Below, in pieces: positions 26,478-57,108 of a DNA stretch of 64,000 bases. Source of the stretch: Siphonodentalium dalli (Eukaryota > Mollusca > Scaphopoda > Gadilida > Siphonodentaliidae); contig CP136064.1 of the NCBI GenBank assembly GCA_032622095.1, forward strand, positions 40,449,912 through 40,513,911. The letters run 5' to 3'. Below the pieces are notes generated by a model. It searched no databases. It was given only the letters and a program-made list of their open reading frames with translations, and was not told where the DNA came from. The translations under genes were made by a program, and so were the position numbers. How positions within the stretch are numbered: position 1 is the first letter of the stretch; each line of letters opens with the position of its first letter.

Positions 26478-26577
26478 NNNNNNNNNNNNNNNNNNNNNNN
26501 NNNNNNNNNNNNNNNNNNNNNNNNNNNNNNNNNNNNNNNNNNNNNNNNNNNNNNNNNNNNNNNNNNNNNNNNNNNNN
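26478..26577. other. Assembly gap, exactly 100 N
   Basis: One hundred Ns mark a scaffold join of unspecified true length. The first base after it is the first base of duplication copy 1, so the copy's left boundary cannot be seen. Confidence 0.99.
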
Positions 26578-26989
26578 GTTAGCAATATCAAACAAACAAT
26601 TTCGATTCACCAAACACCATATAGCTATGCGTCTGACTTTGAACTTTTCGTAACTTGTTTCATGTCCCAGACGAGTCTGACCTAAATCCAGATAATATTT
26701 AGACTTCGTTAATATCAACGGAATCTAATAATTTCTGAGTTTAGTCAGACTGATCCAAAGAGAGATGAAGAGAATGCTCATGGGACACAGACAGAACCGC
26801 TCACAGTGCGAGCCTATCTCTAACATGGGTGTCTCTTACAGAAAACACCTCTGTCAAAATACCAATTCAATGTTCGTCTGTTATTATATTAATCTCATAA
26901 TATCACAGAGTTACTGCGCGAAACATGAATACCATGACACAATCTGACAATTATTTGGGAAACTCACTATTTATGGACCGGTTGGCGAC

Positions 26990-27128
26990 CAAACTCCAGG
27001 CAGAGTTATCTCCCATCGCTCCGCTGAGATACCACTGCCATAATGACATTAACTGGTAAGGAATTCTTACGTGTTTTTAGTTCTTATGTTTTAGCAGCGA
27101 TAGCGTAGAGGGCGCTGTATGGAGTTTG
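26990..27128 (+). mobile_element. 'CAAACTCC' MITE, 139-bp form, 9-bp TSD
   Basis: The ends CAAACTCCAGG and ATGGAGTTTG are flanked by GTTGGCGAC (26981-26989) and GTTGACGAC (27129-27137), a 9-bp duplication with one mismatch. Compared with the 81-bp copies at 33748 and 33988 it carries about 58 extra bases in the middle. No coding capacity. Confidence 0.88.
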
Positions 27129-27146
27129 GTTGACGACAAGCCTGAT

Positions 27147-27590
27147 TATAGTGTGCCTATCATTTGTAGAATGAGGTCCCCAGAGGGTGGATTTAGTGAC
27201 GATATCACGCATAGCGGGCTAGCTAGCATCGCTAAATTCACCCTCTGATGACCTCATTCTGCATAGGCCTCATCTTGTCTGGAAAATTTCGTTATTATCA
27301 AATTTCTATAGAAACTTCTTCACATAGATTATATTTCTTTTTTAGTTTAGTTTCTCTATATCGCCAAATTGGCAGACGACACCTTGCATAATCGAGGTTC
27401 CCAATGGGTGTACATCACAATATTCACCATTTGGGAACTTCAGTCTGAGTCTATGTCTCTCATAGCAGATGAGGCCACGCAGAATGAGGTCCACAGAGGG
27501 TGAATTTGGTTATGCTAGCCCGCTATGCGTTGTAGCGTCACTAAATTCACCCTCTGTGGACCGTATTCTGCAAATGACATGCACACTAAA
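27147..27590. repeat. Compound inverted-repeat element with 'GCAGAATGAGGTCC' hairpins
   Basis: Two hairpins (27166-27262 and 27479-27571) each have arms reading 'gcagaatgaggtc..cagagggtgaattt' and the complement. The pair is itself arranged as an outer inverted repeat: 'agtgtgc..tgtcattt' at the left and its complement near 27575-27588. A third small hairpin, 'gttcccaatgg..ccatttgggaac', lies in the middle. The paralogue is at 34078-34520. Confidence 0.75.
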
Positions 27591-29065
27591 ACTCAGGCGG
27601 TGTCGTTCTCGTGCATTTGGTTGAAATTACCTGCACACATTCAAGCTGAAGTAACGTCATCAACCGATTGATGGCAATGGGTGTGTACTAAAAAAGGATC
27701 TACTCATTTTCAGGATCGAAATGTCCTGCTGACTCCTGCAAGTTCTATTTGTCACAGGGGACAAATATTTCCCACCTGCTAACATGTATGCCTTTAAGGG
27801 GTGCGTATAGCTGGTGTGTCCAGTGTCTTCCCGTGCCGTTACCGAAAACGGCAGAATTTACCGAACAACCGCAGGCAAAAACGCGCGGCACCGCCAGATT
27901 AGGACACCGATGTAATCCTGGGGCAACGTTTTCTGCGATGTCGCCCGCATCTCACGCCTTGTTGGCGAATCGCGCGGCATGCCGCACCGCAAACGCCGTG
28001 TGTAAGGGCCTTAATTACTGGCGGTGTGCTTTCTATTTAGTATATGGCCAAACATATATGTGGCTGGATCTAATGGTTACAAGCAATTAATTATATAGTT
28101 ACAATTCTTGAATTTGTGTAGGGAAACTCGAGTCAGCATAGCAAAACATTATGGCTGCTGATTGGTTGATTATCATTGAGGGAAATTTCCCCTATCTATA
28201 TAGCGCGGGAGCAGAAACTAATAACCTCGTAAATATGGCGATCATTTTCTGTTTAGGTGGCCACGAAAAGTCTGGTGGGTTTCCAAAGTTACGGAAGTGG
28301 TCTGGGTATCCGTATGCTGCTGGTTTTGTGTAGTAAATTGGATAGTTGTGGAAATGCATGATTATCGCTTGAAAAAAATACCGAAACGGGCCCGTTTGTT
28401 GTCACAGACTTGTGTATCGGATGACGTTCTATAAGGGAAAATTGACCCATTGAAGTTCAAATAGGCTTAACACATGGCCGGCGGGACTTATAGTAAACAC
28501 TGTCTCCCGTGGAAAATAATCAGTTGTTTGTAACATATAGTGCAGTGACGTAACTGAATGGCGTCGTGGTGTCTTACGGGACTTACCCCTAACTTCTGCC
28601 AACATTTCATGCATGGCACAACAGAATATATATTTGGAAATTTGAGACCGAAATATGTTGATATTGTTTCGGTAGTTTGATATCCCAATCAGTATATATA
28701 TTTAGTGTTAATGTTTTGTTTATAGACCAATTCAGTTCGAAAATTGTCCTATATTCGGAGCTAAACGGCAAAAATTTCCTATCAAAGCGAGCGTTAAGCG
28801 TTAAGGTAGCAAAAACATTCCGGGCCATGGGGAGGGGTGCCAATGGTTCAAGGGAAGAAGGTGGAAATTTTATGTTGGATACCCCCTTCAATGGAGACCC
28901 TCTAGCCACGCCCCGTCTATATGATTATGTGCAAAATTTAACAAGAGGTGTGACTGTCCCAAATGAGACTAATAATACCCCCGCAGTACACATGAGCTAC
29001 ACAAATGTAGCCTTATTAAAAGGACATGGCTCTTTCGATCCTCAAATTATGTATACGTAATTTGG

Positions 29066-30110
29066 TAACCTGAAATCGTAGATTGAAATTAAAATACGTC
29101 CGACATCTCGTAATTGCAGGAGCACAGGTTGTCGTGCTTGGTGATAAATATATCTTTGCCAAGTTTCACAGAAATTGACCAGGAAACGAAGGAGTAAAAG
29201 CTTGCACTAAATTACAGAATTTTAAGTACGTTGTTAAACATTCCTAAGTCGAAAATGATAATAAACTATAGTAAAAAAAAACTCGTATGAATCTCATAAT
29301 TGCAGGTACACAGCTAGGTTCGGATGATGGTCAATAAGTGTGTCAAGTTTCAAAAACATTGGCAAATAAATGAAGTAATACAAGCTCTGACAAAATTACA
29401 GGGTTGGACAGGGGGGGGGGGGGTCGGAAAAAAATTTCAGGCAAGTATGGCATTTTTTCCATTTCGATCATTTTTTTGTACCCACCCACCCCCACCGCCA
29501 AATTTTTTTTCCGTTTTCGGCAGTTTTTTCCGACCATTTTTTTACACCCACCCCCCCCCCCCTTTTAACACTAAAACCGAGATTTGCGGGGGGAAATTCA
29601 CTGTAAACAGCTGTATATGAATTTCTGTGCATACTATTTATCATGGATGTTAACATGGACATGTAAATAGGAATGAGTCATTTTGAGGTCATTCGGCCAA
29701 AAAAACATGGCTGCCAGCGGCCATCTTGGATTTCAAAATAGAACACTATAACTGCCTGCAGTCAGTTTACCAGTTAGAATTACATTATTTCTCTCATTCA
29801 AACTGATTCAAAGTGGTTTTGAAGCCCAACTCATTGCCAAAACACTAAAAAAAACAAGCAGGAATGTTTTGTTTTAGTTGCGGAAAAAATTGCTTGTTGG
29901 TAGCTTGGACCACCCACCCACCCCGGCATACGTGCCGGAAGAACTCCACTATAAAACGTCGGATGAACCTCATAGTTGCATGTGCACACGTTCCCGTGCA
30001 TGGTACTAAATATATGTGCCAATTTTAACACTACAAGCTCGGACAACGTTTCGTCCACGCATGGACGGACGGACAAGCTGATTCCAGTATGCCGCAATAA
30101 TTTCGTTACG
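29066..30110 (+). repeat. Modular interspersed repeat, three related modules plus 'cggacggacgg' tail
   Basis: Modules at about 29066-29222, 29270-29405 and 29945-30110 share one plan: '(g)aatctcataattgcagg(t/a)(g)cacag', a phrase near 'gtcaa(t)aa..gtgccaagttt' and 'gaag.aata.aagctcgga'. They end with 'catggacggacggacaag'. This is the same general architecture as 1781-2284. A low-complexity insertion splits modules 2 and 3 in this copy. Confidence 0.65.
29406..29940. repeat. Low-complexity G/C/T-rich insertion present only in duplication copy 1
   Basis: Runs of G, C and T ('cccacccaccccca', 'ttttttttccg') replace about 28 bp of sequence found at the matching point of copy 2 (near 36476-36503). 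Flanking sequence lines up precisely on both sides. Similar tracts occur at 14260-14470. Confidence 0.7.
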
Positions 30111-30499
30111 GGGTATAATAATGCAACTGTTCCATTCCAATCGCAACAAGGTCAATTCGATAAGAAGTGATAATTGTTCAGGCAGATACGAAGCAGTGAA
30201 CATATCATACCGAGACAATGCCTCATAAATTTTTGATAGATTTATAGTGTGGTCTATGTGAGACTATTTGTAAACGATCTATATATATATATATCATTAC
30301 TTCCACAATACTCGAGATAATTAGGATCAAGTGACTGAATGTACGATCGATCGAAAGAAATCCTATATATAATGTGTCATTTCGTTTATAGATAATTTGT
30401 TAAGATGCGAAGCAGTGAACACACCACACTGAACAGTGCCTCATCAATTATAATTTGTAATTTATAATTGGGTCCATGTGAGCTTATTTTTAAACTGTT

Positions 30500-30636
30500 A
30501 GTCGGGGAGCCAATAAGGTCCACGTGAACCCCCCCCCCCCCCCCCGATGATTACAAATAACCATATTTGTATTGTTCCCTATGGTATCCAGATAAAGAAT
30601 CCGGATTTCACCGAAAAATAAAGGTGGCCCTACTAG
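30500..30636 (+). repeat. Solo terminal fragment of the foldback element
   Basis: This matches the first ~137 bp of the foldback element's arm at 42439 and 47386 (start AGTCGGGGAGCCAATAAGG, end 'ggtggccctacta'). Only this end is present here; the rest of the element is absent. Confidence 0.8.
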
Positions 30637-30960
30637 GTTACATACAACTAATTATTTTCCATAGGCGACAGTGTTAACTAAAAGTCCCACCGGCCATGGG
30701 TTTGACCTATTTGAACTTCAAGTGGCCAATTTTCCCTTAGAACGCCATCCTCTGCACCAGTATGTGACAACAAACGCGCCCTTTTCGGTATTTTTTTCAA
30801 ACGATAATCTTGCATTTCCACAACTACCTCATTTACTGCACAAAAATCAGCAGCATAAAAATACCCAGACCCCTTCCGTAACTTCTGGACACCACCAGAC
30901 TCTTCCTGGACATCTAAACATACACGATCGCCATATTTTGCACGGGCGCCGCACGGGCTC
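30637..30960 (-). repeat. Inverted copy of an internal piece of the duplicated block
   Basis: The sequence is the reverse complement, with moderate divergence, of about 28240-28525 and its paralogue near 35330-35605. Shared phrases include 'acaactaattattttcca' and 'gaacttcaa..ggccaattttccctta'. It lies immediately after the solo foldback end, suggesting a local rearrangement junction. Confidence 0.75.
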
Positions 30961-33361: not shown

Positions 33362-33747
33362 GTTAGCAATATCAAACAAACAATTTCGATTCACCAAACA
33401 CCATATAGCTATGCGTCTGACTTTGAACTTTGCGGAACTTGTTTCATGTCCCAGACGAGTCTGACTAAATCCAGATAATATTTAGACTTCGTTAATATCA
33501 ACGGAATATAATATTGTCTGAGTTTAGTCAGACTGATCCAAAGAGAGATGAAGAGAATGCGCATGGGACACAGACAGAACCGCCCACAGTGCGAACCCAT
33601 CTCTACCATGTGTGTCTCTTACAGAAAACACCTCTGTCAAAATACCAATTCAATGTTCGTCTGTTATTAAATTAATCTAATAATATCACCATAGACTAAA
33701 AATTATTGATTCTTCATCTATGATATCACCGAGTTGATGCGCGAAAC

Positions 33748-33828
33748 CAAACTCCAGGCAGAGTTATCTCCCATCGCTCCGCTGAGATATATCGCAGCGA
33801 TAGCGTAGATGGCGCTGTATGGAGTTTG
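33748..33828 (+). mobile_element. 'CAAACTCC' MITE, 81 bp, perfect 9-bp TSD, empty site in copy 1
   Basis: The ends CAAACTCCA and TGGAGTTTG are flanked by the perfect duplication GCGCGAAAC (33739-33747 and 33829-33837). In duplication copy 1 the corresponding place (near 26916) has a single GCGCGAAAC followed by ATGA and no element, so this is a bona fide insertion after duplication. At 81 bp it is unusually small. It has an inner palindrome around 'cgctgagatatatcgcagcg'. Confidence 0.95.
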
Positions 33829-33903
33829 GCGCGAAACATGACATACCCTGACACAATCTGATAATTATTTGGGAAACTCACTATTTATGGACCGGTTGGC
33901 GAC

Positions 33904-33982
33904 CAAACTCCAGGCAGAGTTATCTCCCATGGATCCGCTGAGATATATCGCAGTGCTAACGTAGACGGCGCTGCATGGAGTG
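33904..33982 (+). mobile_element. 'CAAACTCC' MITE, right end deleted
   Basis: This is the paralogue of the 26990 copy: the same left duplication GTTGGCGAC (33895-33903) and left end are present. The right end stops at 'catggag', and the right TSD plus flank have been lost in a small deletion next to the following MITE. Confidence 0.8.
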
Positions 33983-33987
33983 TGCCT

Positions 33988-34068
33988 CAAACTCCATGCA
34001 GCGCCCTCTACGCTATCGCTGCGATATATCTCAGCGGAGCGATGGGAGATAACTCTGCCTGGAGTTTG
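33988..34068 (-). mobile_element. 'CAAACTCC' MITE, 81 bp, inverted, perfect 9-bp TSD, empty site in copy 1
   Basis: The element lies in the opposite orientation to its neighbours, flanked by AGTGTGCCT on both sides (33979-33987 and 34069-34077). Copy 1 has a single AGTGTGCCT at about 27149-27157, so this insertion also postdates the duplication. Confidence 0.94.
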
Positions 34069-34077
34069 AGTGTGCCT

Positions 34078-34520
34078 ATCATTTGCAGAATGAGGTCCAC
34101 AGACGGGCCTAGTGGGTGAATTTAGTGACGCTATCACGCATAGCGGGCTAGCATCGCTAAATTCACCCTCTGATGACCTCATTCTGCTTAGGCCTCATCT
34201 TCTCTGGAAAATTTCGTTATAATCAAATTTCTATTATAGAAACTTCTTCACATATATAGATTCTATTTCTTTTTTAGTTTAGTTTCTCTATATCGCCAAA
34301 TTGGCAGATGACACATTGCATAATTGAGGTTCCCAATGGGTGTACATCACAATATTCACCATTTGGGAACTTCAGTCTGAGTCTATGTCTCTCATAGCAG
34401 ATGAGGCCACGCAGAATGAGGTCCACAGAGAGTGAATTTGGTGATGCTAGCCCGCTATGCGTTGTAGCGTCACTAAATTCACCCTCTGTGGACCGTATTC
34501 TGCAAATGACATGCACACTA
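34078..34520. repeat. Compound hairpin element, paralogue of 27147-27590
   Basis: It contains the 'gcagaatgaggtcc' hairpins at 34085-34187 and 34411-34503 and the middle 'gttcccaatgg' hairpin, in the same order as copy 1. Confidence 0.75.
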
Positions 34521-36920
34521 AAACTCAGGCGGTATCGCTCTCGTGCATTTGGTTGAAATTAACTGTACACATTCAAGCTGAAGTAACGTCATCAACCGAT
34601 AGATGGCAATGGGTGTGTAATAAAAAAGGATCTACTCATTTTCAGGATCGAAATGTCCTGCAAGTTCTATTTATCACAGGGGACAATTATCTCCCACATG
34701 CTAACATGTATGCCTTTAAGGGGTGGTAACATCAGATAATTTTATTCCATGTCAGTTATTTTCTTATCTTTATCGCTAGCATCGTTAACCAATATTTTCT
34801 TATTGTTATTACTAAAACCAGTATAACTGTATTCTGCATTTTGATATAAAAACAATTCAGTGTATCTAGCTGGTGTGTCCAGTGTGTTCCAGTGCCGTCA
34901 CTGCAAACGGCAGAATTTACAGAACAACCGCAGGCAAAAACGCGCGGCACCCGCGATACGCACGGCACCGCCAGATTAGGACACCAATGTAATACTGGGG
35001 CAACGTTTTCTGCGATGTCGCCCGCATCTCACGCCGTGTTGGCGAATCGCGCGGCATGCCGCACCGCAAACGCCGTGTGTAAGGGCCTTAATTACTGGCG
35101 GTGTGCTTTCTATTTAGTATATGGCCAAACATATATGTGGCTGGATCTAATGGTTACAAGCAATTAATTATATAGTTACGCTTCTTGAATTTGTGTAGGG
35201 AAACTCGAGTCAGCATAGCAAAACATTATGGCTGCTGATTGGTTGATTATCATTGAGGGAAATTTCCCCTATATAGCGCGGGAGCAGAAACTAATAACCT
35301 CGTAAATATGGCGATCATTTTCTGTTTAGGTGGCCACGAAAAGTCTGGTGGGTTTCTAAAGTTACGGAAGTGGTCTGGGTATATGTATGCTGCTGGTTTT
35401 GTGCAGTAAATTGGATAGTTGTGGAAATGCATGATTATCGCTTGAAAAAAATACCGAAACGGGCGCGTTTGTTGTCACAGACTTGTGTATCGGATGACGT
35501 TCTAAGGGAAAATTGACCCATTGAAGTTCAAATAGGCTTAACACATGGCCGACGGGACTTATAGTAAACACTGTCTCCTGTTGAAAATAATTAGTTGTTT
35601 GTAACCTATAGTGCAGTGACGTAACTGAATGGCGTCGTGGTGTCTTACCCCTAACTTCTGCCAACATTTCATGCATGGCACAACAGAATATATAGTTGGA
35701 AATTTGAGACCGAAATATGTTGATATTGTTTCAGTAGATTGATATCCCAATCAGTATATATATTTAGTGTTAATGTTTTGTTTATAGACCAATTCAGTTC
35801 GAAAATTGTCCTATATATTCGGAGTTAAACGGCAAAAATTTCCTATCAAAGCGAGCGTTAAGCGTTAAGGTAGCAAAAACATTCCGGACCATGGGGAGGG
35901 GTGCCAATGGTTCAAGAGAAGGAGGTGGAAATTTGATGTTGGATACCCCCTCCAATGGAGACCCTTTAGCCACGCCCCGTCTATATGATTATGTGCAAAA
36001 TTTAACAAGAGGTGTGACTGTCCCAGATGAGACTAATAATACCCCCGCAGTACACATGGGCTACACAAATGTAGCCTTATTATATTAAAAGGACATGGCT
36101 CTTTCATTCCTCAAATTATGTATACGTAATTTGGTAACCTGAAATCGTATATTGAAATTAAAATACGTGCAACATCTCGTAATCGCAGGAGCACAGGTTG
36201 TCGTGCTTGGTGATAAATATATCTTTGCCAAGTTTCACAGAAATTGACCAGGAAACGAAGGAGTAAAAGCTTGCACTAAATTACAGAATTTTAAGTACGT
36301 TGTTAAACATTCCTAAGTCGAAAATGATAATAAACTATAGTAAAAAAAACTCGTATGAATCTCATAATTGCAGGTACACAGCTAGGCTCGGATGATGGTC
36401 AATAAGTGTGTCAAGTTTCAAAAACATTGGCAAATAAATGAAGTAATACAAGCTCGGACAAAATTACAGGGTTGGAAAACAAAATTAAGCTGAAAAGGGG
36501 AATAACTCCACTATAAAACGTCGGATGAACCTCATAGCCGCAGGTGCACACGTTCCCGTGCATGGTACTAAATATATGTGCCAAGTTTAACACTACAAGC
36601 TCGGACAACGTTTCGTCCACGCATAGACGGACGGACAAGCTGATTCCAGTATGCCGCAATAATTTCGTTACGGGGTATAATAATGCAACTGTTCCATTCC
36701 AATCGCAACAAGGTCAATTCGATAAGAAGTGATAATTGTTCAGGCAGATACGAAGCAGTGAACATATCATACCGAGACAATGCCTCATAAATTTTTGATA
36801 GATTTATAGTGTGGTCTATATGAGACTATTTGTAAACGATCTATATATATATATCATTACTTCCACAATACTCGAGATAATTAGGATCAAGTGACTGAAT
36901 GTACGATCGATCGAAAGACA

Positions 36921-39155
36921 TCTATTATATATTTTGGAAGATCTGTTTGTTTGTGTGTTTGTAATCGATGGACTCAAAAACGACTGAGCCAATTTCGATG
37001 AAACTTGGTATGTGGGGGTATTTTCGGGTCAGGACCAACATAGGCCTATTAATTTGTCCGTGCGAGGTCAACTTTTCACGTGCCGAGGTCAAATCTGTTT
37101 TTACGCCGTTTTGCGCTAATATATTTCAGTTCGGTGCTTACAAATCGATTCGAAACAGCGCGAATAATAACATGCCAGTCATAATAATGACACTATGAGA
37201 ATCTTTCGTGTTTCCTCTTTCCAACGATATATAATATGTATGTATCCGTTTTAGTTATCTGCCTCAATTATTAAGAAGAAGTGGTACGATCTTCTATCAC
37301 GGTAAAAACAATGCGTAACTTCTATGACGTCGTTAGAGGTCATAAAGTTAGATCACGTTAACTCTTAACCCGCCGATGCATTTGACTGTTTCAGACGTCT
37401 TGGCGATATCTCGGGCACCGATGGTAATTTATCTTTACGTTGAAACTTGATAATTAATGAGCGTGTGTATATGAGGCGCGTTTATATACTTGAGTGGAAA
37501 TCAAATCGGGTTAAAAGGTCAAATCGGGTAAAACCGGATGGATTTCGACGGGTACGTTTGTTCGGGCAGTGTTTTGGACGGGTCAAATCGTGACCCCACT
37601 TGACCTTGGCCTTCAAAATAGACAATTCAAGGTCAAACCCCGGACGAAGTCGGGTCACCTTCTAGTCTATTATATATTTTGGAAGATCTGTTTGTTTGTG
37701 TGTTTGTAATCGATGGACTCAAAAACGACTGAGCCAATTTCGATGAAACTTGGTATGTGGGGGTATTTTCGGGTCAGGACCAACATAGGCCTATTAATTT
37801 GTCCGTGCGAGGTCAACTTTTCACGTGCCGAGGTCAAATCTGTTTTTACGCCGTTTTGCGCTAATATATTTCAGTTCGGTGCTTACAAATCGATTCGAAA
37901 CAGCGCGAATAATAACATGCCAGTCATAATAATGACACTATGAGAATCTTTCGTGTTTCCTCTTTCCAACGATATATAATATGTATGTATCCGTTTTAGT
38001 TATCTGCCTCAATTATTAAGAAGAAGTGGTACGATCTTCTATCACGGTAAAAACAATGCGTAACTTCTATGACGTCGTTAGAGGTCATAAAGTTAGATCA
38101 CGTTAACTCTTAACCCGCCGATGCATTTGACTGTTTCAGACGTCTTGGCGATATCTCGGGCACCGATGGTAATTTATCTTTACGTTGAAACTTGATAATT
38201 AATGAGCGTGTGTATATGAGGCGCGTTTATATACTTGAGTGGAAATCAAATCGGGTTAAAAGGTCAAATCGGGTAAAACCGGATGGATTTCGACGGGTAC
38301 TTTTGTTCGGGCAGTGTTTTGGACGGGTCAATTCGTGACCCCACTTGACCTTGGCCTTCAAAATAGACAATTCAAGGTCAAACCCCGGACGAAGTCGGGT
38401 CACCTTCTAGTCTATTATATATTTTGGAAGATCTGTTTGTTTGTGTGTTTGTAATCGATGGACTCAAAAACGACTGAGCCAATTTCGATGAAACTTGGTA
38501 TGTGGGGGTATTTTCGGGTCAGGACCAACATAGGCCTATTAATTTGTCCGTGCGAGGTCAACTTTTCACGTGCCGAGGTCAAATCTGTTTTTACGCCGTT
38601 TTGCGCTAATATATTTCAGTTCGGTGCTTACAAATCGATTCGAAACAGCGCGAATAATAACATGCCAGTCATAATAATGACACTATGAGAATCTTTCGTG
38701 TTTCCTCTTTCCAACGATATATAATATGTATGTATCCGTTTTAGTTATCTGCCTCAATTATTAAGAAGAAGTGGTACGATCTTCTATCACGGTAAAAACA
38801 ATGCGTAACTTCTATGACGTCGTTAGAGGTCATAAAGTTAGATCACGTTAACTCTTAACCCGCCGATGCATTTGACTGTTTCAGACGTCTTGGCGATATC
38901 TCGGGCACCGATGGTAATTTATCTTTACGTTGAAACTTGATAATTAATGAGCGTGTGTATATGAGGCGCGTTTATATACTTGAGTGGAAATCAAATCGGG
39001 TTAAAAGGTCAAATCGGGTAAAACCGGATGGATTTCGACGGGTACTTTTGTTCGGGCAGTGTTTTGGACGGGTCAAATCGTGACCCCACTTGACCTTGGC
39101 CTTCAAAATAGACAATTCAAGGTCTAACCCCGGACGAAGTCGGGTCACCTTCTAG
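36921..39155 (+). mobile_element. Helitron-like units 1-3 (745 bp each)
   Basis: Units 36921-37665, 37666-38410 and 38411-39155 have identical length and differ at only a few bases (for example near 37555, 38331 and 39124). They are the youngest subgroup, probably amplified together. Confidence 0.95.
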
Positions 39156-40615
39156 TCTATTATATATTTTGAAAGATCTGTGTATGTGTTTGTTTGTGTG
39201 TTTGAAATCGATGGACTCCAAAACGACTAAGCCAATTTCGATGAAATTTGGTATTTGGATGTGTTTTCGGCCGGAGACGAACATAGGCATATTTATTTGT
39301 CCGTGCGAGGTCAACTTTTCACGTGCGGAGGTCAAATCTATTTTTACGCCGTTTTTGCGCTAATATATTTCAGTTCGGTGCTCACAAATCGATTCGATAT
39401 AGCGCGAATAATAAATTGCCAGTCATATAATTTGCACGGTTAGAATCTGTGTGGCTTCATCTTTCCAACGATATATAATATGTATGTATCCGTTTTAGTT
39501 ATCTGCCTCAATTATTAGGTACAAGTGGTACGGGGATCTTTTATCAGGATAAAATCACTGCGTAAATTCTATGACGTCGTCAGAGGTCATAAAGTTAGAT
39601 TACGTTAACTCTCACCCTGCCGATGCATTTGACTGTGTCGCGTTAACTCATCACCGGCCGAGGTATCCGCAAATGACATTGTGCTATATATCTCGGAAAC
39701 GGGTGTAACTATCGACTTGAAATTTGGTATGTGAATGTATCTTGCCCCGGATACGAATTTTATCGGGTCGCCGAGCACGCGCGACACCAGCTTCGCGCAT
39801 GCGCAGACCAGATCTAGGAAACGGGTGCAGCAATCGACTTGAAATTTGGTTTTTGAATAGCCCGGACGAAGTCGGGTCACCTTCTAGTCTATTATATATT
39901 TTGAAAGATCTGTGTGTTTGTTTGTGTGTTTGAAATCGATGGACTCCAAAACGACTAAGCCAATTTCGATGAAATTTGGTATTTGGATGTGTTTTCGGCC
40001 GGAGACGAACATAGGCATATTTATTTGTCCGTGCGAGGTCAACTTTTCACGTGCGGAGGTCAAATCTATTTTTACGCCGTTTTTGCGCTAATATATTTCA
40101 GTTCGGTGCTCACAAATCGATTCGATATAGCGCGAATAATAAATTGCCAGTCATATAATTTGCACGGTTAGAATCTGTGTGGCTTCATCTTTCCAACGAT
40201 ATATAATATGTATGTATCCGTTTTAGTTATCTGCCTCAATTATTAGGTACAAGTGGTACGGGGATCTTTTATCAGGATAAAATCACTGCGTAACTTCTAT
40301 GACGTCGTCAGAGGTCATAAAGTTAGATTACGTTAACTCTCACCCTGCCGATGCATTTGACTGTGTCGCGTTAACTCATCACCGGCCGAGGTATCCGCAA
40401 ATGACATTGGGCTATATATCTCGGAAACGGGTGTAGCTATCGACTTGAAATTTGGTATGTGAATGTATCTTGCCCCGGATACGAATTTTATCGGGTCGCC
40501 GAGCACGTGCGACACCAGCTTCGCGCATGCGCAGACCAGATTTAGGAAACGGGTGGAGCAATCGACTTGAAATTTGGTCTTTTAATAGCCCGGACGAAGT
40601 CGGGTCACCTTCTAG
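39156..40615 (+). mobile_element. Helitron-like units 4-5 (732 and 728 bp)
   Basis: Units 39156-39887 and 39888-40615 belong to a second subtype with a different 3' third ('gagcacg(c/t)gcgacaccagcttcgc'). They share the 5' end, 3' hairpin and CTAG with the first subtype. Confidence 0.93.
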
Positions 40616-42311
40616 TCTATTATATATTTTGAAAGATCTGTGTGTGTGTTTGTGTGTTTGAAATCGATGGACTCGAAAACGACTAAGCCAATTTCGATCA
40701 AATTTGGTATTTGGATGTGTTTTCGGCCGGAGACGAACATAGGCATATTTATTTGTCCGTGCGAGGTCAACTTTTCACGTGCGGAGGTCAAATCTATTTT
40801 TACGCCGTTTTTGCGCTAATATATTTCAGTTCGGTGCTCACAAATCGATTCGATATAGCGCGAATAATAAATTGCCAGTCATATAATTTGCACGGTTAGA
40901 ATCTGTGTGGCTTCATCTTTCCAACGATATATAATATGTATGTATCCGTTTTAGTTATCTGCCTCAATTATTAGGTACAAGTGGTACGATGCTTTTATCA
41001 GGATAAAATCAATGCGTAAATTCTATGACGTCGTCAGAGGTCATAAAGTTAGATTACGTTAACTCTCACCCTGCCGATGCATTTGACTGTGTCGCGTTAA
41101 CTCATCACCGGCCGAGGTATCCGCAAATGACATTGGGCTATATATCTCGGAAACGGGTGTAGCTATCGACTTGAAATTTGGTATGTGAATGTATCTTGCC
41201 CCGGATACGAATTTTATCGGGTCGCCGAGCACGTGCGACGCCAGCTTCGCGCATGCGCAGACGAGATCTCGGAAACGGGTTGAGATATTGACTTTAAATT
41301 TGGTATGTGAATGTATCTTGCCCCGGATACGAATTTTATCGGGTCGCCGAGCACGTGCGACACCAGCTTCGCGCATGCGCAGACCAGATCTAGGAAACGG
41401 GTGGAGCAATCGACTTGAAATTTGGTTATTTAATAGCCCGGACGAAGTCGGGTCACCTTCTAGTCTATTATATATTTTGAAAGATCTGTGTGTGTGTTTG
41501 TGTGTTTGAAATCGATGGACTCGAAAACGACTAAGCCAATTTCGATGAAATTTGGTATTTGGATGTGTTTTCGGCCGGAGACGAACAGAGGCATATTTAT
41601 TTGTCCGTGCGAGGTCAACTTTTCACGTGCGGAGGTCAAATCTATTTTTACGCCGTTTTTGCGCTAATATATTTCAGTTCGGTGCTCACAAATCGATTCG
41701 ATATAGCGCGAATAATAAATTGCCAGTCATATAATTTGCACGGTTAGAATCTGTGTGGCTTCATCTTTCCAACGATATATAATATGTATGTATCCGTTTT
41801 AGTTATCTGCCTCAATTATTAGGTTCAAGTGGTACGATGCTTTTATCAGGATAAAATCAATGCGTAATTTCTATGACGTCGTCAGAGGTCATAAAGTTAG
41901 ATTACGTTAACTCTCACCCTGTCGATGCATTTGACTGTGTCGCGTTAACTCGTCACCGGCCGAGGTATCCGCAAATGACATTGGGCTATATATCTCGGAA
42001 CCGGGTGTAGCTATCGACTTGAAATTTGGTATGTGAATGTATCTTGCCCCGGATACGAATTTTATCGGGTCGCCGAGCACGTGCGACGCCAGCTTCGCGC
42101 ATGCGCAGACGAGATCTCGGAAACGGGTTGAGATATTGACTTTAAATTTGGTATGTGAATGTATCTTGCCCCGGATACGAATTTTATCGGGTCGCCGAGC
42201 ACGTGCGACACCAGCTTCGCAAATGCGCAGACCAGATCTAGGAAACGGGTGGAGCAATCGACTTGAAATTTGGTTTTTTAATAGCCCGGACGAAGTCGGG
42301 TCACCTTCTAG
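40616..42311 (+). mobile_element. Helitron-like units 6-7 (848 bp each)
   Basis: Units 40616-41463 and 41464-42311 are subtype 2 with an internal duplication of about 120 bp in the 3' third ('ctcggaaacgggt' through 'gcatgcgcagac'), which makes them longer. Their shared length shows one was copied from the other or both from one template. Confidence 0.93.
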
Positions 42312-42438
42312 TCCTATATATAATGTGTCATTTCGTTTATAGATAATTTGTTAAGATGCGAAGCAGTGAACTCACCACAATGAACAGTGCCTCATCAATT
42401 CTAATTTGTAATTTATAATTGGGTCCATGTGAGCTTAT
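42312..42438 (+). repeat. Large direct duplication, copy 2 (right part, after the array)
   Basis: Resumes the match to 30361-30482 ('tcctatatataatgtgtcat' onward) directly after the Helitron array and ends at the foldback element. Confidence 0.92.
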
Positions 42439-45400
42439 AGTCGTGGAGCCAATAAGGTCCACGTGCACCCCCCGCCCCCGATGATTACAAATAACCTTAT
42501 TTTTATTGTTCCCTATGGTATCCAGATAAAGAATCCGGATTTCACCGAAAAATAAAGGTGGCCCTACTATGTGCTAGAGCCATTTGAACCCAAGATGGCC
42601 GCCATTTCCTCTAATTCCGACCAGCTGTATTTAATCGTTGTAATAGATCGGTTGTTAGCAAAAGACACAGACAAAATGTATGCCATTTTGTTGGTATGAT
42701 GTCCTTCGTCAAAGTGACGGCAAATCATTTCGAAAAAAGTACAAAATGGCCGCCAAAAAATGACGTCATATGCACGAAAATATGAAATTTAATTATTATT
42801 TCACCATATCTTTCATTTTTCTTCACATTAATCATTAGTCAATGGCAATGTTTTTGAGATAGTCAATAAGCGTGATATTATAGCGTCATTTTAAGACATT
42901 TTCCATTGACGAGGGTTGCGTAATAGATACAGAAAGAGGATTTGAAAAAGAGGGGTGAAATATTCGATTTTTTTTGCAAGACGATTTTAATAGTCATTTT
43001 AACGACAAACCACACAGGCTCTTTATAGAATGTCAACAACTATGTGCTTTAATTTATTGGACGGATGTTTTACTTCAATGGGAATGAAATTGGTGTAGAA
43101 AATTTCCAAAATGGCCGCCGAAAATATGAAAAATGGTAAATATTGCCCCAGGGTGTCCTGCAATGGCTTACAAGTTGTGGTTGATATATAAAATGGGCTA
43201 ATCTGTATTATATATATTGAATACTAACATGTCTAATGCACCATGGATCATTGTTTCTATTGTCACCACTGAAATCACCAGAAATATTGGATTTTTCTCT
43301 CACAAACTTGACATAAATATCGGCAAAAATTCACTTTTCAGGGTTGGACAATTGTTTTAAGTAAAATGCAACTATCATTGGTATCAAATGTATTTATTGT
43401 TTTGGTCTATCTTAAATGTGTCACACTACGGTGTTTATAGACCAAATTACATATATCCGAACATTATTCTCTGCGTTATCCGACAAGGTATTAAATTGTG
43501 ACTCACTTGGTTATTATACGTGTTAGTTAATTAACTGACAACTACGTTCTATTATGTTTGTCCCAGTTCCGTATGGGGCATGACAAATTCATTTTAAAGT
43601 TGCAGTATGGAATTTTGCGGAGAACATCTTTTGTGATTCTTGCCATATTATTGAAAGGAAATGGGCAGGACTTTGAAACGGAACTGAGATGAACCATAAT
43701 ATGTGGCTATTCTGGTCAATTATGATAAAACATATCAACTGGATACAGGGTGGATGCCAAGATGGTAGCCAGGGAGTTACTATATGATCATAGATGAGGT
43801 GAATAGGTATACATAGTTATTGTATGGTCAATGGTGAGATGAGTACATGTATGTATAGAATGAGTGACTGTGTGATCATAAATGTAATGAATAGCTATAC
43901 AGGTAGTGACTAAATGGTCATGTGTCAGGTGTATAAGTATACCCGGTGTTCCTGCTTGGTGACTCGTGGCGGTATGGTCATGTGTAGGTTATACGGGTAT
44001 ACATATGTGTTGCTATATGGTCATGGGCGAGGGGTATGTGTATATAGCGTGCGCTATATGGCCATGGATGATGTGCATATGCATACATGAAGTGAATATA
44101 CTGACATGGCTGGGGAGTATTATTATATCTTGAGTGGCTATTCTTCTATGGTGTGACAAATATAGGGATACATGGAGTGGCATGGCCAAGGGTGAGGTGA
44201 ATATATATACAATGATTGACCATGATCATGTATGAATGTTTTGAATAGGTACACATGGGGTGACTATATGGCCATAGGTCAGATGAAGGACTATACCAGG
44301 TGCCATGGGTGAGGGTGTATGACGCGAGTGGCTATATGACAATTGGTGAGGTGGATATGTATACCCGGGGTGAATCTATGGTCATTGTTGTGGTGTTTAT
44401 GTATATATTGAATGTCTATTTGACCACAGGAGCTTGGAATTTGGTCAACACCCCTCTTTGGTCCCGGGTGGTGGTTCCGCCAATAAAGAGGGGTTTTGAC
44501 CAAATTCCAAGCTCCTGTGATTTGACCATGTGTGTGTGGATAATAGGTATACATGGGATGACCGTATGACCAATGGTGAGGTGAATGGGTATACAAGGAG
44601 TGACTCTATGGTTATGGGTCATGTTTAGGATTATACCCGGTGTGCCTGCATTATGACTCATGGCTGTATGGCCATCCATGGTCATGGGTCAGGTGTACGT
44701 TTATACAGTTGGTCACTATATTGTTATGTCTGTGGTTTTTATGTATATATGGAATGACTGTGTGGTAATGGGTCGCTATCGCTTTTCACGTTTAAAGTTC
44801 CCCCATGTACACAAACACTATCAAGGTGTAGAACTCTTTGACATGACCTCTCTATTGATTAACATATCCTTGAGTTATTGTGGAAATCGATAGCCACCCA
44901 AATTACACATGTACAACCCACCCATGACCTCATATGTACATAAACACCACAAAAATGACAATATAGTCACCCACTCTATACACGTACACCTGACCATACA
45001 GCCATATTTGGTTATACCGATACATGCCACAAATGACGATACAGCCATGAGTCACCATGCATGAACACCAGGTATACTCCTACACCTGACCATATAGTCA
45101 CTCTATGTATACATATTCACCACATTCACGATCATACAGTCACTCATTGTATACCTATTCACTTCTCCATGGACCATACAGCCACTACATGTATATCTAT
45201 TCGCCATACCCATGACCATAGAGTCAATCCAGATATACATATACACCCCACCAATGGTGAGCCCTTCCAAATATACCAATACCCGCACACACGACCACTC
45301 ATAAGTTTCATACTTGCATATACACCTCACACATGACAATTCAGCAACTCACTTTATACCCATACACGCCATGATCATTCATCTACACCCTATACACCAC

Positions 45401-47585: not shown

Positions 47586-48463
47586 TCGATTATACATTTT
47601 GAAACACCTGTATGTATGTATGTATGTGTGTATGCATGAATGCATGTGTGTATGTGTTATAGACTCTAACACTGCTCGAATTTGGTATTTAACGTGTCAA
47701 CTTGACCTCGCTCATAGGCATGTTTCTGGACCTTGACCGATCCGACTAAAAATTTGTGTGTAGGACTACTTCGATCCCGGGAGCAATATGAACGGGTCCA
47801 AGTTCATGTGGGACCATGTTCTCGAACGTGCTGATATAGGCATGTTTCTGGACCAATTGAACAATAGTTTGGCCAGACGCTGTATATACTGGGTACTGTC
47901 CAGATGGAGGCGATCACAAAAAAATCCCTAACTAGCCCGAACGAAGTCGAGTACATCAGCTAGTCTAATATATATTTTGGACATTTGTCTGTCTGTTTGT
48001 CTGTTAGCTATGGCCGGGAAAACTGCCTGACAGATTTGACGAAATTTTATACCAAGGGGAAATTATTTCCAGGGAGTATTTTGGACGGGTCAAATCTTGA
48101 TCCCGACCTGACTTTGACATTCAAAAAGATCAATTCAAGGTCAAATATGGTAAAACGGAAGTATTTCAACGAAATGTGATACCTACTGTTACTTTTGTCA
48201 CAGGAGTGTTTCGGGTGGGTCAAATCATGACCCTGACCTGATCTTGACATTCAAAATTGTCAATTCAAGGTCAAATCGAGTAAAGCCGGGCGGATTTCGA
48301 CGGGTACTTTTGTCGTGACTTTTGTCCGGGGAGTGTTTTGGACGGGTCAAATCGTGACCCCGACATGACCTTCACCTTTAAAATAGTCAATTCAAGGTTA
48401 AATCGCGCAATTCTCCGAAAATCAGAGGGGAACATCCCGGACGAAGTCGGGTCCACCAGCTAC
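47586..48463 (+). mobile_element. Two tandem Helitron-like elements (378 and 500 bp)
   Basis: Unit a (47586-47963) ends CCCGAACGAAGTCGAG then ACATCAGCTAG. Unit b starts directly with TCTAATATATATTTTGG and ends CCCGGACGAAGTCGGG, CCACCAGCTAC at 48463. They share the 3' hairpin and the 'gacgggtcaaatc.tgacccc.ac.tgacctt' segment with the array at 36921. The terminal CTAC instead of CTAG in unit b is either a mutation or a variant end. Confidence 0.85.
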
Positions 48464-51767: not shown

Positions 51768-52363
51768 AATTATAATTCAGTATGACTTTTAACCGACAAC
51801 AGTCTTAAATAAATAATGTAAGACTCCCTTACGTTATGTATGCGCGGTGGTAGTGTTCATGTAAGACTCCCTTACGTTGTGTATGCGCGGTGGTAGTGTT
51901 CATGCAAGACTTCCTTATGTATGCGCGGTGGCAGTGTTCATGTAAGACTCCCTTACGTTATGTATGCGCGGTGGCAGTGTTCATGTAAGACTCCCTTACG
52001 TTATGTATGCGCGGTGGCAGTGTTCATGTAAGACTCCCGTACGTTATGTATGCGCGGTGGCAGTGTTCATGTAAGACTCCCTTACGTTATGTATGCGCGG
52101 TGGCAGTGTTCATGTAAGACTCCCTTAAGTTATGTATGCGCGGTGGCAGTGTTCATGTAAGACTCCCGTACGTTATGTATGCGCGGTGGCAGTGTTCATG
52201 TAAGACTCCCTTAAGTTATGTATGCGCGGTGGCAGTGTTCATGTAAGACTCCCGTACGTTATGTATGCGCGGTGGCAGTGTTCATGTAAGACTCCCGTAC
52301 GTTATGTATGCGCGGTGGCAGTGTTCATGGGACTGAATTCTGCCTTGCATTTTGTAGATGTGA
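51768..52363 (+). mobile_element. Minisatellite-cored element 1 (~43-bp unit, 12 copies)
   Basis: Twelve units of 'gtaagactccc(t/g)ta.gttatgtatgcgcggtgg(t/c)agtgttcat' occupy about 51817-52329. The left flank ('aattcagtatgac' to 'agtcttaaataaa') and right flank ('ggactgaattctgccttgcattttgta') are homologous to those of 53616-54830. Conserved ends around a variable tandem core are typical of Pearl/HINE-type mobile minisatellites known from bivalves and flies; the assignment is inference. Confidence 0.75.
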
Positions 52364-53615: not shown

Positions 53616-54830
53616 ATTCAGAATGAATTATAACCGATAAAAGTCTTAAATAAAAAAATGAGTGAATACCTCCCATTATGTGTACATGAATACCTCCCAT
53701 TCTGTGTACATGAATACCTCCCATTCTGTGTACATGAGTGAATACCTCCCATTCTGTGTACATGAGTGAATACCTCCCAGTCTGTGTACATGAGTGAATA
53801 CCTCCCATTCTGTGTACATGAGTGAATACCTCCAATTCTGTGTACATGAATACCTCCCATTCTGTGTACATGAGTGAATACCTCCCATCCTGTGTACATG
53901 AGTGAATACCTCCCATTCTGTGTACATGAGTGAATACCTCCCATTATGTGTACATGAATACCTCCCATTCTGTGTACATGAGTGAATACCTCCCATTCTG
54001 TGTACATGATTGAATACCTCCCATTCTGTGTACACGGGTGAATACCTCCCATTCTGTGTACATGAATACCTCCCAATCTGTGTACATGAGTGAATACCTC
54101 CCATTATGTGTACATGAGTGAATACCTCCCATTCTGTGTACATGAGTGAATACCTACCATTCTGTGTACATGAGTGAATACCTCCCATTCTGTGTACATG
54201 AGTGAATACCTCCCATTATGTGTACAGGAGTGAATACCTCCCATTATGTGTACATGCGTGAATACCTCCCATTCTGTGTACATGCGTGAATACCTCCCAT
54301 TCTGTGTACATGAGTGAATACCTCCCATTCTGTGTACATGAGTGAATACCTCCCATTATGTGTACATGAGTGAATACCTCCCATTCTGTGTACATGAATA
54401 CCTCCCATTCTGTGTACATGCGTGAATACCTCCCATTCTGTGTACATGAGTGAATACCTCCCATTCTGTGTACATGAATACCTCCCATTATGTGTACATG
54501 AGTGAATACCTCCCGTTCTGTGTACATGAGTGAATACCTCCCATTCTGTGTACATGAGTGAATACCTCCCATGCTGTGTACATGAGTGAATACCTCCCAT
54601 GCTGTGTACATGAGTGAATACCTCCCATGCTGTGTACATGAGTGAATACCTCACATTCTGTGTACATGATGGTGGTGTTCATGAATACCTCCCATTCTGT
54701 GTACATGATGGCGGTGTTCATGAATACCTCCCATTCTGTGTACATGATGGCGGTGTTCATGAATACCTCCCATTCTGTGTACATGATGGTGGTGTTCAGT
54801 CCAACCATGAGACTGAACTCCGCATTGTAG
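53616..54830 (-). mobile_element. Minisatellite-cored element 2 (28/24-bp and 39-bp units)
   Basis: About 40 units of 28 bp ('gagtgaatacctcccattctgtgtacat', some 24 bp without 'gagt') run from 53660 to 54660, followed by four 39-bp units that add 'gatgg(t/c)ggtgttcat'. The 39-bp unit aligns with the 43-bp unit of element 1, and the flanks ('aattcagaatgaat' to 'agtcttaaataaa'; 'gagactgaactccgcattgtagt') are homologous too. Because 28 is not a multiple of three and the unit lacks stops, all three minus-strand frames stay open; the resulting repeat peptides are not convincing proteins. Confidence 0.85.
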
Positions 54831-55094
54831 TTTGAACAGTGGCTTGGCCGAATTGAGTGACGTGCAAACTTGTGCTATTTTCACCAAAATAAAACATTAT
54901 TCCCGTATAATTAGCGTTCCTGTTCCGAATCCACATCCACGATTCCCGTTATAGACTATAGTACTAGTGCTGCTATTGGTCAATTACGATATTTCATCAG
55001 CCAATCGCAGCACTCGTAATTATTAACATAAACAGGTTTTCGCGGCATTAGTTACCACTTTTGATAATTCGCATTTAATCCACCCGCCCACACC

Positions 55095-57108
55095 CAGAGT
55101 CGTTATCTCGTGGGAATCCCGATTCAGAATCTGGATTCAGATTACAGATTAGACCCCGTGCGACTTGGTTCGGTAAACGAACAGACCAGAAATTGGCAGA
55201 ATCAGTAAACGAACAGACCGTAATCTCAATCTCGTGTTAATCCAGATTCGGATTCGGATTCCGATTACGGACTCAAATGTTCGTAACGTAAACAAACCGA
55301 GATTTCGCCACCTCGGAGTTTAAAAAGACAATAAAACATAAGAATCCGTTTCTTGTGTACAAATTATTGCAGAATATGAACGATCTATATCAAAGAATTT
55401 TAAATGCGGAGACAAATTTGTTTTATCGAATGTAAACTGGGAGAATATTACTGAAATTAGCCAAATAATAACGCTATTGATAGTAACGCTGGGGGAGCAC
55501 TTCGGTTGATGGCGAAGCAAATCATTGTCGATTTTATTGTCACTTTCATATGTCCATTTCATAATTCCATCCATATAATACCGCCCGAACGCATGTCGAT
55601 TTGGAATTCGGCGGATACGTCACCATTGACCGAATTCATGTGAACCTGCACCGATATGTCTTCTGTTGTGTTCGTTATTATAAAGTTTCTTCTTATTAAA
55701 GAAATAGTAGGATTATATGATATCGATGGACTATCAGATACACGTATGTACTATCTAGTCTTATAGCAATTTCATGTTTAAAATGTTTTGTTTCGTTAAA
55801 TGCAGTCGTTTTGCACAATAGTCTCTGTATAGACAACAAACAGACATGTTTTGGCCAACGTACTGTACAATAGTTGGAAAATAAAGCTTTGCTCATGAAG
55901 CTAATGTTGTGGTCTTGTGATCGCAGGTGAACTGCATCTCCCAATCACACAAACAAAATGTAAAGCTTATTCTAGGATCTCAGGACTATATAGTGGAAAT
56001 GTCAGTCAATTTATTGATTAAGTACCCACACGTACAAGTTCTAGGGACGTGGCTAGAGGTTTCCTCAAATTTCCGGTCAACTGCATCCCCCCCCCCCACA
56101 TTGAACCAAACATCAATCTCACAGGTTCGCAGAATTCCATTTGCACCCCTTGGAAATAGCCAACCTGACACACACTAAGATTGGAAAATTCCAACCTATA
56201 TATGGTGTCAAATTAATGTCCAACTAATGTTGTGTCATGCATGAAATTTCCAACTGCTGGAAATGTATCAAAGTTTAGTTTAAACATATTTATTTCAAAT
56301 ATTTGTCAAATTTAGATAACACATAATATATAACACATACATTTGTTTATACATACAATGGGATTGGAGGACAAGTGCTGACTCACTGAATGGTACCCCC
56401 TCTCCCATATGTTATTACACTGAAAAAAAAAAAAATTAGTAATGGCAAAGCAACACGACTACCAAAACAAGTTGAACATATATACAGATCACCGGTCACC
56501 CCCTCTTCCGAGTTAGTCATAAGTTTGTATATGTATTTATTTAAAATCGGGTTTGTTTGTTGCGTTTGCTGGCTTGTACGTATCATTATTTGGAACAGTT
56601 AGTCAAAAGAATCCTGATTTTTCCTCACGTATGAATGACTGCACAGCTAAGCAAATTGTACCAAAGTTCGGGGGGGGGGTCGAGACACCCAACCAACCCC
56701 TGTCGTAACGTCCCTGTGCAAGTGACAAGTTTCGTGTGCTCTTCACAACATCTTCGGAATTTGATTCAGGAGGCCTAGAGCTGTTAGAATTAAATGCTTG
56801 CCCTCATCAATAAACACACTTTAACTTGAAAAAAAGATGCGATTAAGTCGGATTGGCAGCAAATTATGTGCCGTGTATATACGCATAGAAGAAAAGCATG
56901 ACTTTCACAACAAATGTGAACTTTATAAATATAAGATACAAATGATACTTGTGTCAAATACATGAGCCATGTTTGACGCTGGGAGAACAGTAAACATAGT
57001 TTCGGAGACCACGTGGATTTCAAAATCTGACCTAGAATCGGGAATTAGCCCCGCCCACGTAATCGGCTTTGGATTCCGAATCCGGATTCCCGCGAGATAA
57101 CGACTCTG
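55095..57108. mobile_element. TIR element ('GAGTCGTTATCTCG' family), copy B, 2.0 kb
   Basis: The ends read CAGAGTCGTTATCTCG and the complement (57093-57108), with about 25 bp of good TIR and more imperfect match beyond. The first ~1.3 kb equals one arm of the palindrome at 21616-24557, and the next ~300 bp equals its loop. Beyond 56690 the sequence is unique to this copy. No transposase frame or clear target-site duplication is visible. Confidence 0.85.

Follow-up and report, generated by a model that had tools for sequence, protein, structure and literature searches.

A seven-unit Helitron array beside its empty paralogous target in Siphonodentalium dalli, and a 5' terminus that may double as a landing site

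Introduction

Exact head-to-tail joints between Helitrons could arise from a concatemer, from insertion between A and T before an existing 5' end, or from insertion between G and T after an existing 3' end, a choice left open for maize in 2008 in the available text (PMC2267711). For the maize r1 region, the same authors weighed A/T insertion at a 5' end against G/T insertion at a 3' end (a slash marks the junction point throughout). In the portion of a fungal study at hand, three tandem Helitrons of Metarhizium acridum are read either as two insertions into a Helitron 5' end or as rolling-circle replication, and in one pair of FoHeli4 copies only 2 bp separate the upstream element from the next (PMC5148889).

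The array described here lies in a window of 64,000 nucleotides of the scaphopod Siphonodentalium dalli (contig CP136064.1, positions 40,449,912 to 40,513,911). This genome supplies thousands of such joints, paralogous before/after pairs, and a combination of families with readable insertion order.

The array and its empty paralogous site

Seven non-autonomous canonical Helitrons stand head to tail in the window (Table 1; lengths from the assembly sequence). Comparison with the empty site places the array exactly between a host A and T, without a TSD and without a lost base. TC...CTAG ends are present in all seven units and the internal joints read CTAG/TCTATTATATATTTT in six of six, while the outer junctions are GACA/TC (5') and CTAG/TCCTATATATAATG (3'). 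The 3' hairpin, CCCGGACGAAGTCGGG, lies 11 nt before the end and in type A folds into a 5-bp stem (−6.4 kcal/mol, RNA parameters).

The units fall into types A, B, and C, with pairwise identities of 99.7% among U1-U3, 98.9% between U4 and U5, and 98.8% between U6 and U7. Type C is similar to type B and carries an internal duplication of ~122 bp. U1-U3 are 71.6–73.6% identical to U4-U7 over the whole alignment and 86.6–87.5% over the first 472 bp, the part common to type A and types B and C diverging by ~13%.

Table 1. Coordinates of the array, its units, and the duplicated target within the window
Feature	Position	Strand	Remarks
Duplication copy 1 (empty)	26578..30638	+	matches copy 2 in pieces
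Uninterrupted (empty) target, paralogous copy	30353..30375	+	junction point 30360/30361
Duplication copy 2 (occupied)	33362..42572	+	
Seven-unit head-to-tail Helitron array	36921..42311	+	unit boundaries and alignment
U1, type A, 745 bp	36921..37665	+	external 5' end after host A; 1 private substitution
U2, type A, 745 bp	37666..38410	+	1 private substitution
U3, type A, 745 bp	38411..39155	+	1 private substitution
U4, type B, 732 bp	39156..39887	+	4 private substitutions, 0 uniquely shared with U5
U5, type B, 728 bp	39888..40615	+	3 private substitutions
U6, type C, 848 bp	40616..41463	+	3 private substitutions
U7, type C, 848 bp	41464..42311	+	external 3' end before host T; 7 private substitutions, 0 uniquely shared with U6
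3' terminus, hairpin and CTAG	42285..42311	+	identical final 27 bases in 7/7 units
Host half of target: T, TATATATA from +4	42312..42326	+	

The empty site reads GAAA/TCCTATATATAATG and differs from the occupied copy by a single substitution at position −2 relative to the junction. The left flanks of the two copies differ at 8 of 422 aligned bases and the right flanks at 9 of 261 (~2.5% overall), with 2 and 17 gap columns, respectively. The empty site is a paralogue within a diverged tandem duplication, which carries no implication of allele status. A 100-N gap at 26478-26577 adjoins the first base of copy 1, and the left edge of that copy is hence an assembly edge. Of 194 candidates for a further copy that could act as an outgroup, 40 were scored, and none of these spans the junction.

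The preliminary description of this DNA had claimed seven canonical units between A and T without a TSD, exact joining of each CTAG to the next TC, and an empty target preserved nearby. Unit boundaries, the all-by-all alignment of units and junctions that it proposed, and the empty-site comparison bear these claims out, the empty target being a paralogous uninterrupted site.

Host target, joints, and enzyme partner across the genome

Among the 100 external 5' ends listed, the preceding base is A in 92 and G in three, one of the latter being itself a variant array joint. With 6 of 100 flanks set aside as joints, 62 unique host flanks were retained, and all 62 begin with T on the 3' side. The motif TATA[AT] occurs at +3 to +12 in 53 of 58 unique host flanks (7 of 65 were dropped as TA runs), compared with 691 of 13,333 A/T sites in the window (5.2%); composition shuffles of the 58 flanks (2,000 shuffles) gave a mean of 12.4 with the motif and a maximum of 24. 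The host target is TA/T followed by a TATA-like motif.

A 39-base joint pattern with up to 3 mismatches matched 6,464 times in the 2.23-Gb genome, and its reversed control not once. This is far above chance, yet it also means that such joints are common here; the proposed search for further CTAG/TC joints was fruitful, and the rarity originally claimed is not borne out. Families F2 and F3 also take part in joints of this type. Insertions without a joint are frequent too. On C1, both outer ends were located for 39 insertions, of which 27 have no exact joint (27 of 66 external 5' ends were unpaired; exact joints only were counted, with joint-like rows omitted), and two of these jointless insertions, 1.6 and 7.3 kb long, may contain decayed joints. 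An ordinary satellite without target specificity was rejected given the A/T and TATA target, these jointless insertions, and the presence of unlike neighbours.

The Rep/Hel partner that had been postulated is present in the genome. At L003, a frame of 1,697 aa contains both domains (Helitron_like_N, 2.1e-57; PIF1, 4.3e-66), and its element shares 148–152 bp of 5' end (81–90%) and 29–48 bp of 3' end with types A, B, and C. Rep/helicase-bearing elements with the same termini are also located within such stacks. The window units are presumably mobilised by these same-genome elements, judging by the shared ends. TC/CTRR ends, a 3' hairpin, A/T insertion without a TSD, and a partner sharing these ends identify the units as canonical Helitrons. 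The insertion into T-rich sequence described for the Helentron/DINE-1 type in the available part of PMC4067079 differs from the A/T and TATA target found here.

The 5' end as a landing site

A target matrix was built from the 62 host flanks, and the window family was named F1. The F1 boundary scores 7.76 against a host median of 7.54, and 0.8% of A/T sites in the window score as high. By this measure the F1 5' end resembles a typical host target, and its first bases, TCTATTATATATTTT, carry the host-target layout. The position four bases inside the terminus (+4) scores 5.38 in F1 and 9.66 in F3, and the F3 boundary scores −0.49.

F1 is inserted within F3 at +4 at 285 exact sites which, with 4,786 intact F3 5' ends, means that 285 of 5,071 (5.6%) have been hit at one base. 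Six of these sites on C1 were tested. An F1 5' end was matched to four of them, always following TCTA, and the F1 lengths all differ (857, 736, 880, 925). These insertions show the order, with the newcomer lying four bases inside the older 5' terminus and upstream of the older body.

Insertion of F1 within F1 at +4 was found at 1 exact site, despite F1 +4 also carrying a TATA motif, and the gap between matrix scores of 7.76 and 5.38 is too small to account for this. Furthermore, 217 F1/F3 boundary joints exist although the F3 boundary scores poorly, therefore another route must produce them. The preceding base is G at joints within arrays and A at host insertions, a difference that counts against insertion in front of existing 5' ends.

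Ancestry of the units and competing origins

The 6,464-to-1 bias of the F1/F1 boundary over F1 +4 is consistent with rolling-circle concatemers, in which failed termination at the 3' hairpin or repeated circle copying would produce multimers (AAA, and perhaps also BB and CC) that integrated in a single event or a small number of them. Helraiser circles with exact head-to-tail joints are described in the available text of PMC4778049, and U1-U3 are equal in length and have one derived site in common that is present in none of seven other A copies. The 12 loci not selected by similarity to window units point in the same direction, with near-identical neighbours in 5 of 31 adjacent F1/F1 pairs versus 3 of 300 random F1 pairs from different loci. 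In the same set, however, 14 of 31 neighbouring pairs are <95% identical and 4 differ mainly in length (237 and 19 of the 300 random pairs, respectively). Neighbouring units thus resemble each other more than randomly paired units do, which counts against stacking by separate insertions. The resemblance is strongest in the set made up of the window and the loci chosen for similarity to A or C, where 8 of 18 pairs are near-identical and 3 unlike. Both counts use one copy per duplicated pair and come from loci chosen for several joints or shared flanks, a non-random sample of the genome.

Against concatemers, neither U4 and U5 nor U6 and U7 have any private site in common, and U6 is nearer to copies elsewhere (L034, 4 mismatches; L035, 6; L032, 8) than to U7 (10). 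The joints shared with F2 and F3 also count against them. As A and types B and C are ~13% apart in their common part, they cannot share a single concatemer, and such an origin of the whole array from one unit is excluded. Multimers remain an unlikely source of the array. As to the preliminary question of one event versus repeated insertion, delivery of all seven units together as a mixed block assembled beforehand is disfavoured.

Such a block, preassembled and moved via read-through of internal 3' ends, would fit the recurrence of B adjoining C at several loci (hand reading) and the duplication of a block of C plus an autonomous element, whose compared end parts are 99.6% identical. Nevertheless, by the same hand reading both B and C orders occur, A and C are also found standing alone at other loci, and A followed by B was absent from the covered stretches of the fetched A loci (L024-L031, L048-L050, L052; 40 of 3,611 candidates scored). 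Transfer as a block is accordingly rated as improbable.

The preliminary description had also raised growth at the 3' CTAG/T joint, which would require G/T to be accepted as a target, an option that Du et al. 2008 also left standing in maize in the text available (PMC2267711). The paralogous pair L012 and L013 lends this some support: L013 contains one additional unit of 798 bp, placed precisely between the 3' end of an F2 element and the 5' end of an F1 element, and the units on either side are 96–98% identical between the two copies. The alignment is most simply read as a gain at CTAG/T inside the array, between two older units. The 3'-joint and 5'-front readings differ at the outer edges only, because every inner joint also lies directly before a resident 5' end. 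At those edges G precedes just the three external 5' ends noted above, and wherever order is readable the newcomer lies upstream of the existing body. Despite the apparent gain, 3'-joint growth is rated as very unlikely. Growth at the outer 5' edge only was also rejected, as L012/L013 and L014/L015 differ at inner joints too.

Duplication inside arrays occurs as well. At L021, units 1 and 3 are identical around a different middle unit, L016 contains non-adjacent sister units, and 3.1-kb blocks in L051 and L052 repeat at ≥99.9%. The duplication at L051 includes DNA with no recognised Helitron end at its start, and that at L052 involves two F3 elements into which an A is nested. Giant Helitron units, suggested by the 3.1-kb joint spacing, were rejected, the spacing being due to these tandem duplications. 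Ordinary satellite behaviour, namely unequal exchange among units following one insertion, would explain such repeats but alone cannot yield units with their closest sampled relatives elsewhere, nor inter-family joints, and is highly improbable as the origin of the array.

A test of growth order based on terminal branches in a FastTree of 81 F1 units gave no trend. Across 21 arrays, the 5'-most unit had the shorter branch in 8 (for a 5'-youngest order) and the longer in 11 (against), with 2 ties (p = 0.65; Spearman −0.05, p = 0.71). The test is weak because L024-L039 were picked for A or C likeness and segmental copies shorten branches.

Proposed mechanism

For array growth, repeated precise insertion before an existing 5' end is favoured, with a probability of roughly 0.6. 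F1 inserts at A/T sites that have a TATA-like motif a few bases further on. Each insertion would leave such a site at the 5' end of the new element, into which later elements could insert precisely. The occupied site probably remains attractive because its own first bases match the target layout. Successive insertions would then stack head to tail, giving CTAG/TC joints.

In the window, type C was probably first, followed by B and finally the A trio, which may be a single founder multiplied in place. The array would have formed after the duplication that left the empty copy. That the window joints formed like the F1-in-F3 insertions would be an extrapolation from another family's terminus, and we infer both the arrival order of the units and the enzyme-supplying element. 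More broadly, it is tentatively proposed, at slightly less than even odds, that a Helitron 5' terminus also serves as an insertion target for members of the same family and of related ones. The target would never be consumed and mixed-family arrays would grow one way, with newcomers upstream, the window array and its empty paralogue being a dated example. If true, a self-matching landing site would offer a simple path from dispersed transposon to satellite-like arrays.

Comparison with known systems

Neither a TATA-type target nor target likeness of the 5' end was found in the Helitron literature, within a scope of available running text that leaves aside figures (e.g. the logos of PMC13286980) and most subscription papers. 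As far as the accessible text goes, the canonical Helitrons of bat, silkworm, and maize (PMC4067079, PMC2267711, PMC5876387) have the same 5' TC, 3' hairpin and CTRR, A/T insertion without a TSD, and CTAG/TC joints. S. dalli differs in that its joints run into the thousands, single arrays combine several families with Rep-bearing elements, and the target is of a TATA type to which the 5' end bears a resemblance. Helraiser/Helibat1 has the same AT target, favours AT-rich surroundings, most strongly on the 3' side, and has an AT-rich stretch close to its 5' cleavage site; the available text does not contain the word TATA and reports that new insertions were not clustered around donor sites (PMC4778049).

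The fungal Helitrons are single cases with non-canonical ends, and the text at hand does not describe their 5' ends as resembling a target (PMC5148889). Plant centromeric Helitron arrays (Xiong et al. 2016, as cited in the accessible part of PMC12628747) also consist of tandem copies. The copies are described there as truncated, and many of the arrays have a single 3' end but more than one 5' end, whereas every unit of the window array has both ends. In the maize r1 region, two different head-to-tail Helitrons meet at a G/T joint as they do here. In the available account that is one locus of unresolved order (PMC2267711), while S. dalli offers many loci and F1-in-F3 insertions that show the order.

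Structure of the array and ancestry of its units

The window array is well explained as a real, exact stack of canonical Helitrons. Its seven complete non-autonomous units (U1-U7) stand head to tail with zero bases between neighbours, all begin with TCTATTATATATTTT and are identical over their 3'-terminal 27 bases. The unit types, here labelled A, B and C, are clustered in runs along the array in that order. The flanks of the array meet exactly at the uninterrupted paralogous target in duplication copy 1, the empty site, with substitutions at 17 of 683 aligned flank bases.

Features of the window and of comparison loci
Feature	Position	Description
U1-U7	36921-42311	Helitron array
U1-U3		Type A, 745 bp each
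U4, U5		Type B
U6, U7		Type C, B-like plus internal duplication of ~122 bp
Empty site	30360/30361	Duplication copy 1
Gap	26478-26577	100 N, directly abutting position 26578, where duplication copy 1 begins
Further Helitron-like joint	47963-47964	CATCAGCTAG joined to TCTAATATATATTTTGG, further family
127-bp tandem repeat	48068-48405	Behind the preceding joint, resembles part of U1
F2-like Helitron 5' end	31095 (- strand)	After host A
Inverted repeat	21647-24537	Arms ~1.3 kb (88%), related to 55093-56690
28-bp minisatellite	53658-54669	~37 copies
43-bp minisatellite	51816-52329
L052	C7:146833800-146841500	3,096-bp higher-order repeat, 99.9% identity, made of a pair of F3 elements of which one is interrupted by an A unit
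L005, L009	C2:141.79 Mb	Rep-bearing F2 element of ~8.6 kb within head-to-tail stack; 1,650-aa frame with STPR repeats, Rep and Pif1 domains
L033	Locus position 157	F1 unit whose start follows GATGAAA and lies 103 bases behind that of another F1; by hand reading apparently nested in F1, at A/T without a near TATA motif

Type A diverges from B/C by ~13% over the common first 472 bp, whereas the two copies of the insertion site differ by 2.5%, so in-place divergence from a single arrival does not account for all of U1-U7. With gap columns left out, U1-U3 have one shared derived site relative to seven A copies elsewhere, while no shared site was found for U4 and U5 against five B copies, or for U6 and U7 against nine C copies. 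U4 has one site in common with another locus, L036. Private substitutions from U1 to U7 number 1, 1, 1, 4, 3, 3 and 7, with the fewest at the 5' end and the most in U7. From these alignments, five lineages are the best reading of the array: the A trio, U4, U5, U6 and U7. The trio may have arisen by local triplication or as a trimer. The gradient would fit C arriving first and A last; a test of 21 arrays found no general trend in unit age along arrays.

Genome-wide joints and Rep partners

The assembly searched comprises 2.23 Gb in 9 contigs, with the window at C4:40449912-40513911. A 39-base query for the joint, the exact junction of two units, gave 3,029 + 3,435 matches at ≤3 mismatches, and its reversed control gave 0. 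Searches with one flank position restricted gave 7,022 external 3' ends (17 bases exact) and 5,455 external 5' ends of F1, the family of U1-U7. At least 151 matches to PF14214 (Helitron_like_N) were found, with 150 scored of 457 candidates, several having open frames >1,500 aa.

An F1 3' end lies behind the Rep frame in two of the eight Rep loci fetched (L002, L003). At C1:114.62 Mb, a stack runs B-like, C, Rep element (8,809 bp), C, Rep element (9,150 bp), and its joints are exact at the ends read. The first Rep element, read at its ends only, has a Rep match and an open frame of 986 aa from the genome PF14214 search; the second carries a 1,697-aa frame with Helitron_like_N and PIF1 domains. 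A, B and C have in common with these elements a 5' stretch of 148-152 bp (81-90%) and a 3' stretch of 29-48 bp. The same stacks hold two further families, here called F2 (TCTCATATATATTTTG...CATCGGCTAG; Rep-bearing copy in L005/L009) and F3 (TCTATACTATATATTTTG...AACCTGCTAG).

Target preference and insertion order

Flanks and sites were taken from the first places listed, starting on contig C1. Among the first 100 listed, the base before external 5' ends is A in 92, T in 4, G in 3 and C in 1, and position -2 is T in 66/84 unique 5' flanks from those listed. The 100 typed 3' flanks listed comprise 94 host flanks and 6 joints (3 F1, 3 F3). All 62 unique host 3' flanks kept begin with T, and TATA[AT] occurs at +3 to +12 in 53/58 flanks, compared with 5.2% of window A/T sites. 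By a target matrix built from host flanks only, the F1 boundary, directly before the 5' end, ranks as an average target, while the F3 terminus scores high four bases inside (+4) and low at the boundary.

Exact F1-into-F3 sites at +4 number 285 genome-wide by a search pattern covering the 3' side only; intact F3 ends number 4,786. The first 100 form 61 clusters at 1-Mb spacing, and the 285 are therefore sites rather than all independent events. TCTA was seen on the 5' side in four paired sites and in L052. Where both sides were read the order is fixed: F1 inserted into an F3 already in place, upstream of the body of that F3. F1/F1 boundary joints would arise in the same manner. A single F1-into-F1 insertion was found at the corresponding +4 position, and the resulting boundary bias of 6,464 to 1 exceeds what the matrix difference can account for; a transposase recognising its own end, or rolling-circle multimers, may contribute. 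The 217 F1/F3 boundary joints, at a low-scoring position, fall outside the matrix explanation, F3 inserting behind F1 being one possibility.

Likeness of neighbours and duplication within arrays

In 12 loci not picked for likeness to window units, 37 joints comprise 31 F1/F1, 5 F2/F1 and 1 F3/F2. Of the 31 F1/F1 pairs, 14 fall below 95% identity, another 4 are distinguished chiefly by length, and 5 are near-identical; among 300 random pairs from different loci the corresponding numbers are 237, 19 and 3. In 13 loci selected for their resemblance to A or C, plus the window, near-identical pairs make up 8/18 and unlike pairs 3/18.

Segmental copies also vary in unit content, each difference being either a gain or a loss where pairs have no outgroup. 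L012 and L013 differ by one inner unit. L014 has two orthologous units in common with L015 plus L040 at 99.4%, with differences among the others both inside and at the 5' edge. Four of the five loci L042-L046 have the last unit in common at 98-99.7%, and upstream units differ except one common to L044 and L045. Identical units 1 and 3 flank a different unit in L021, sister units are non-adjacent in L016, and 3.1-kb blocks are repeated at ≥99.9% in L051 and L052. At C1:114.62 Mb there are two copies of the C-plus-Rep block, with 99.6% identity between C copies and between the compared Rep-element ends. Duplication inside arrays is therefore also at work.

Comparison with published Helitron arrays

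Our main reading is repeated precise insertion before existing 5' ends, aided by a target-like 5' terminus (probability about 0.6). That the Helitron 5' terminus doubles as a landing site, with mixed-family arrays growing one way and the newcomer upstream, is put forward tentatively, at slightly under even odds. Confidence in both is lowered because the matrix does not predict F1/F3 boundary joints, and tempered because fewer than half of the unselected neighbour pairs are unlike in sequence.

The portions of the literature searched yielded no TATA-type target matched by an element's own 5' end. For two adjacent maize Helitrons, a passage of Du et al. 2008 (PMC2267711) weighs insertion at A/T before the 5' end against insertion at G/T after the 3' end and leaves the order open. 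For a fungal triplet, an excerpt of PMC5148889 names insertion into a 5' end among the possible readings, and tandem Helitrons of bat, silkworm and plants come up in extracts of PMC4067079 and PMC5876387. Sections of PMC4778049 report circles and a preference for AT-rich sequence that is most marked on the 3' flank, and a passage of PMC3288121 cites a preference of maize HelA for inserting near or inside other Helitrons. Beside these reports, the window array is unusual in its scale and in the likeness of its 5' end to the target.
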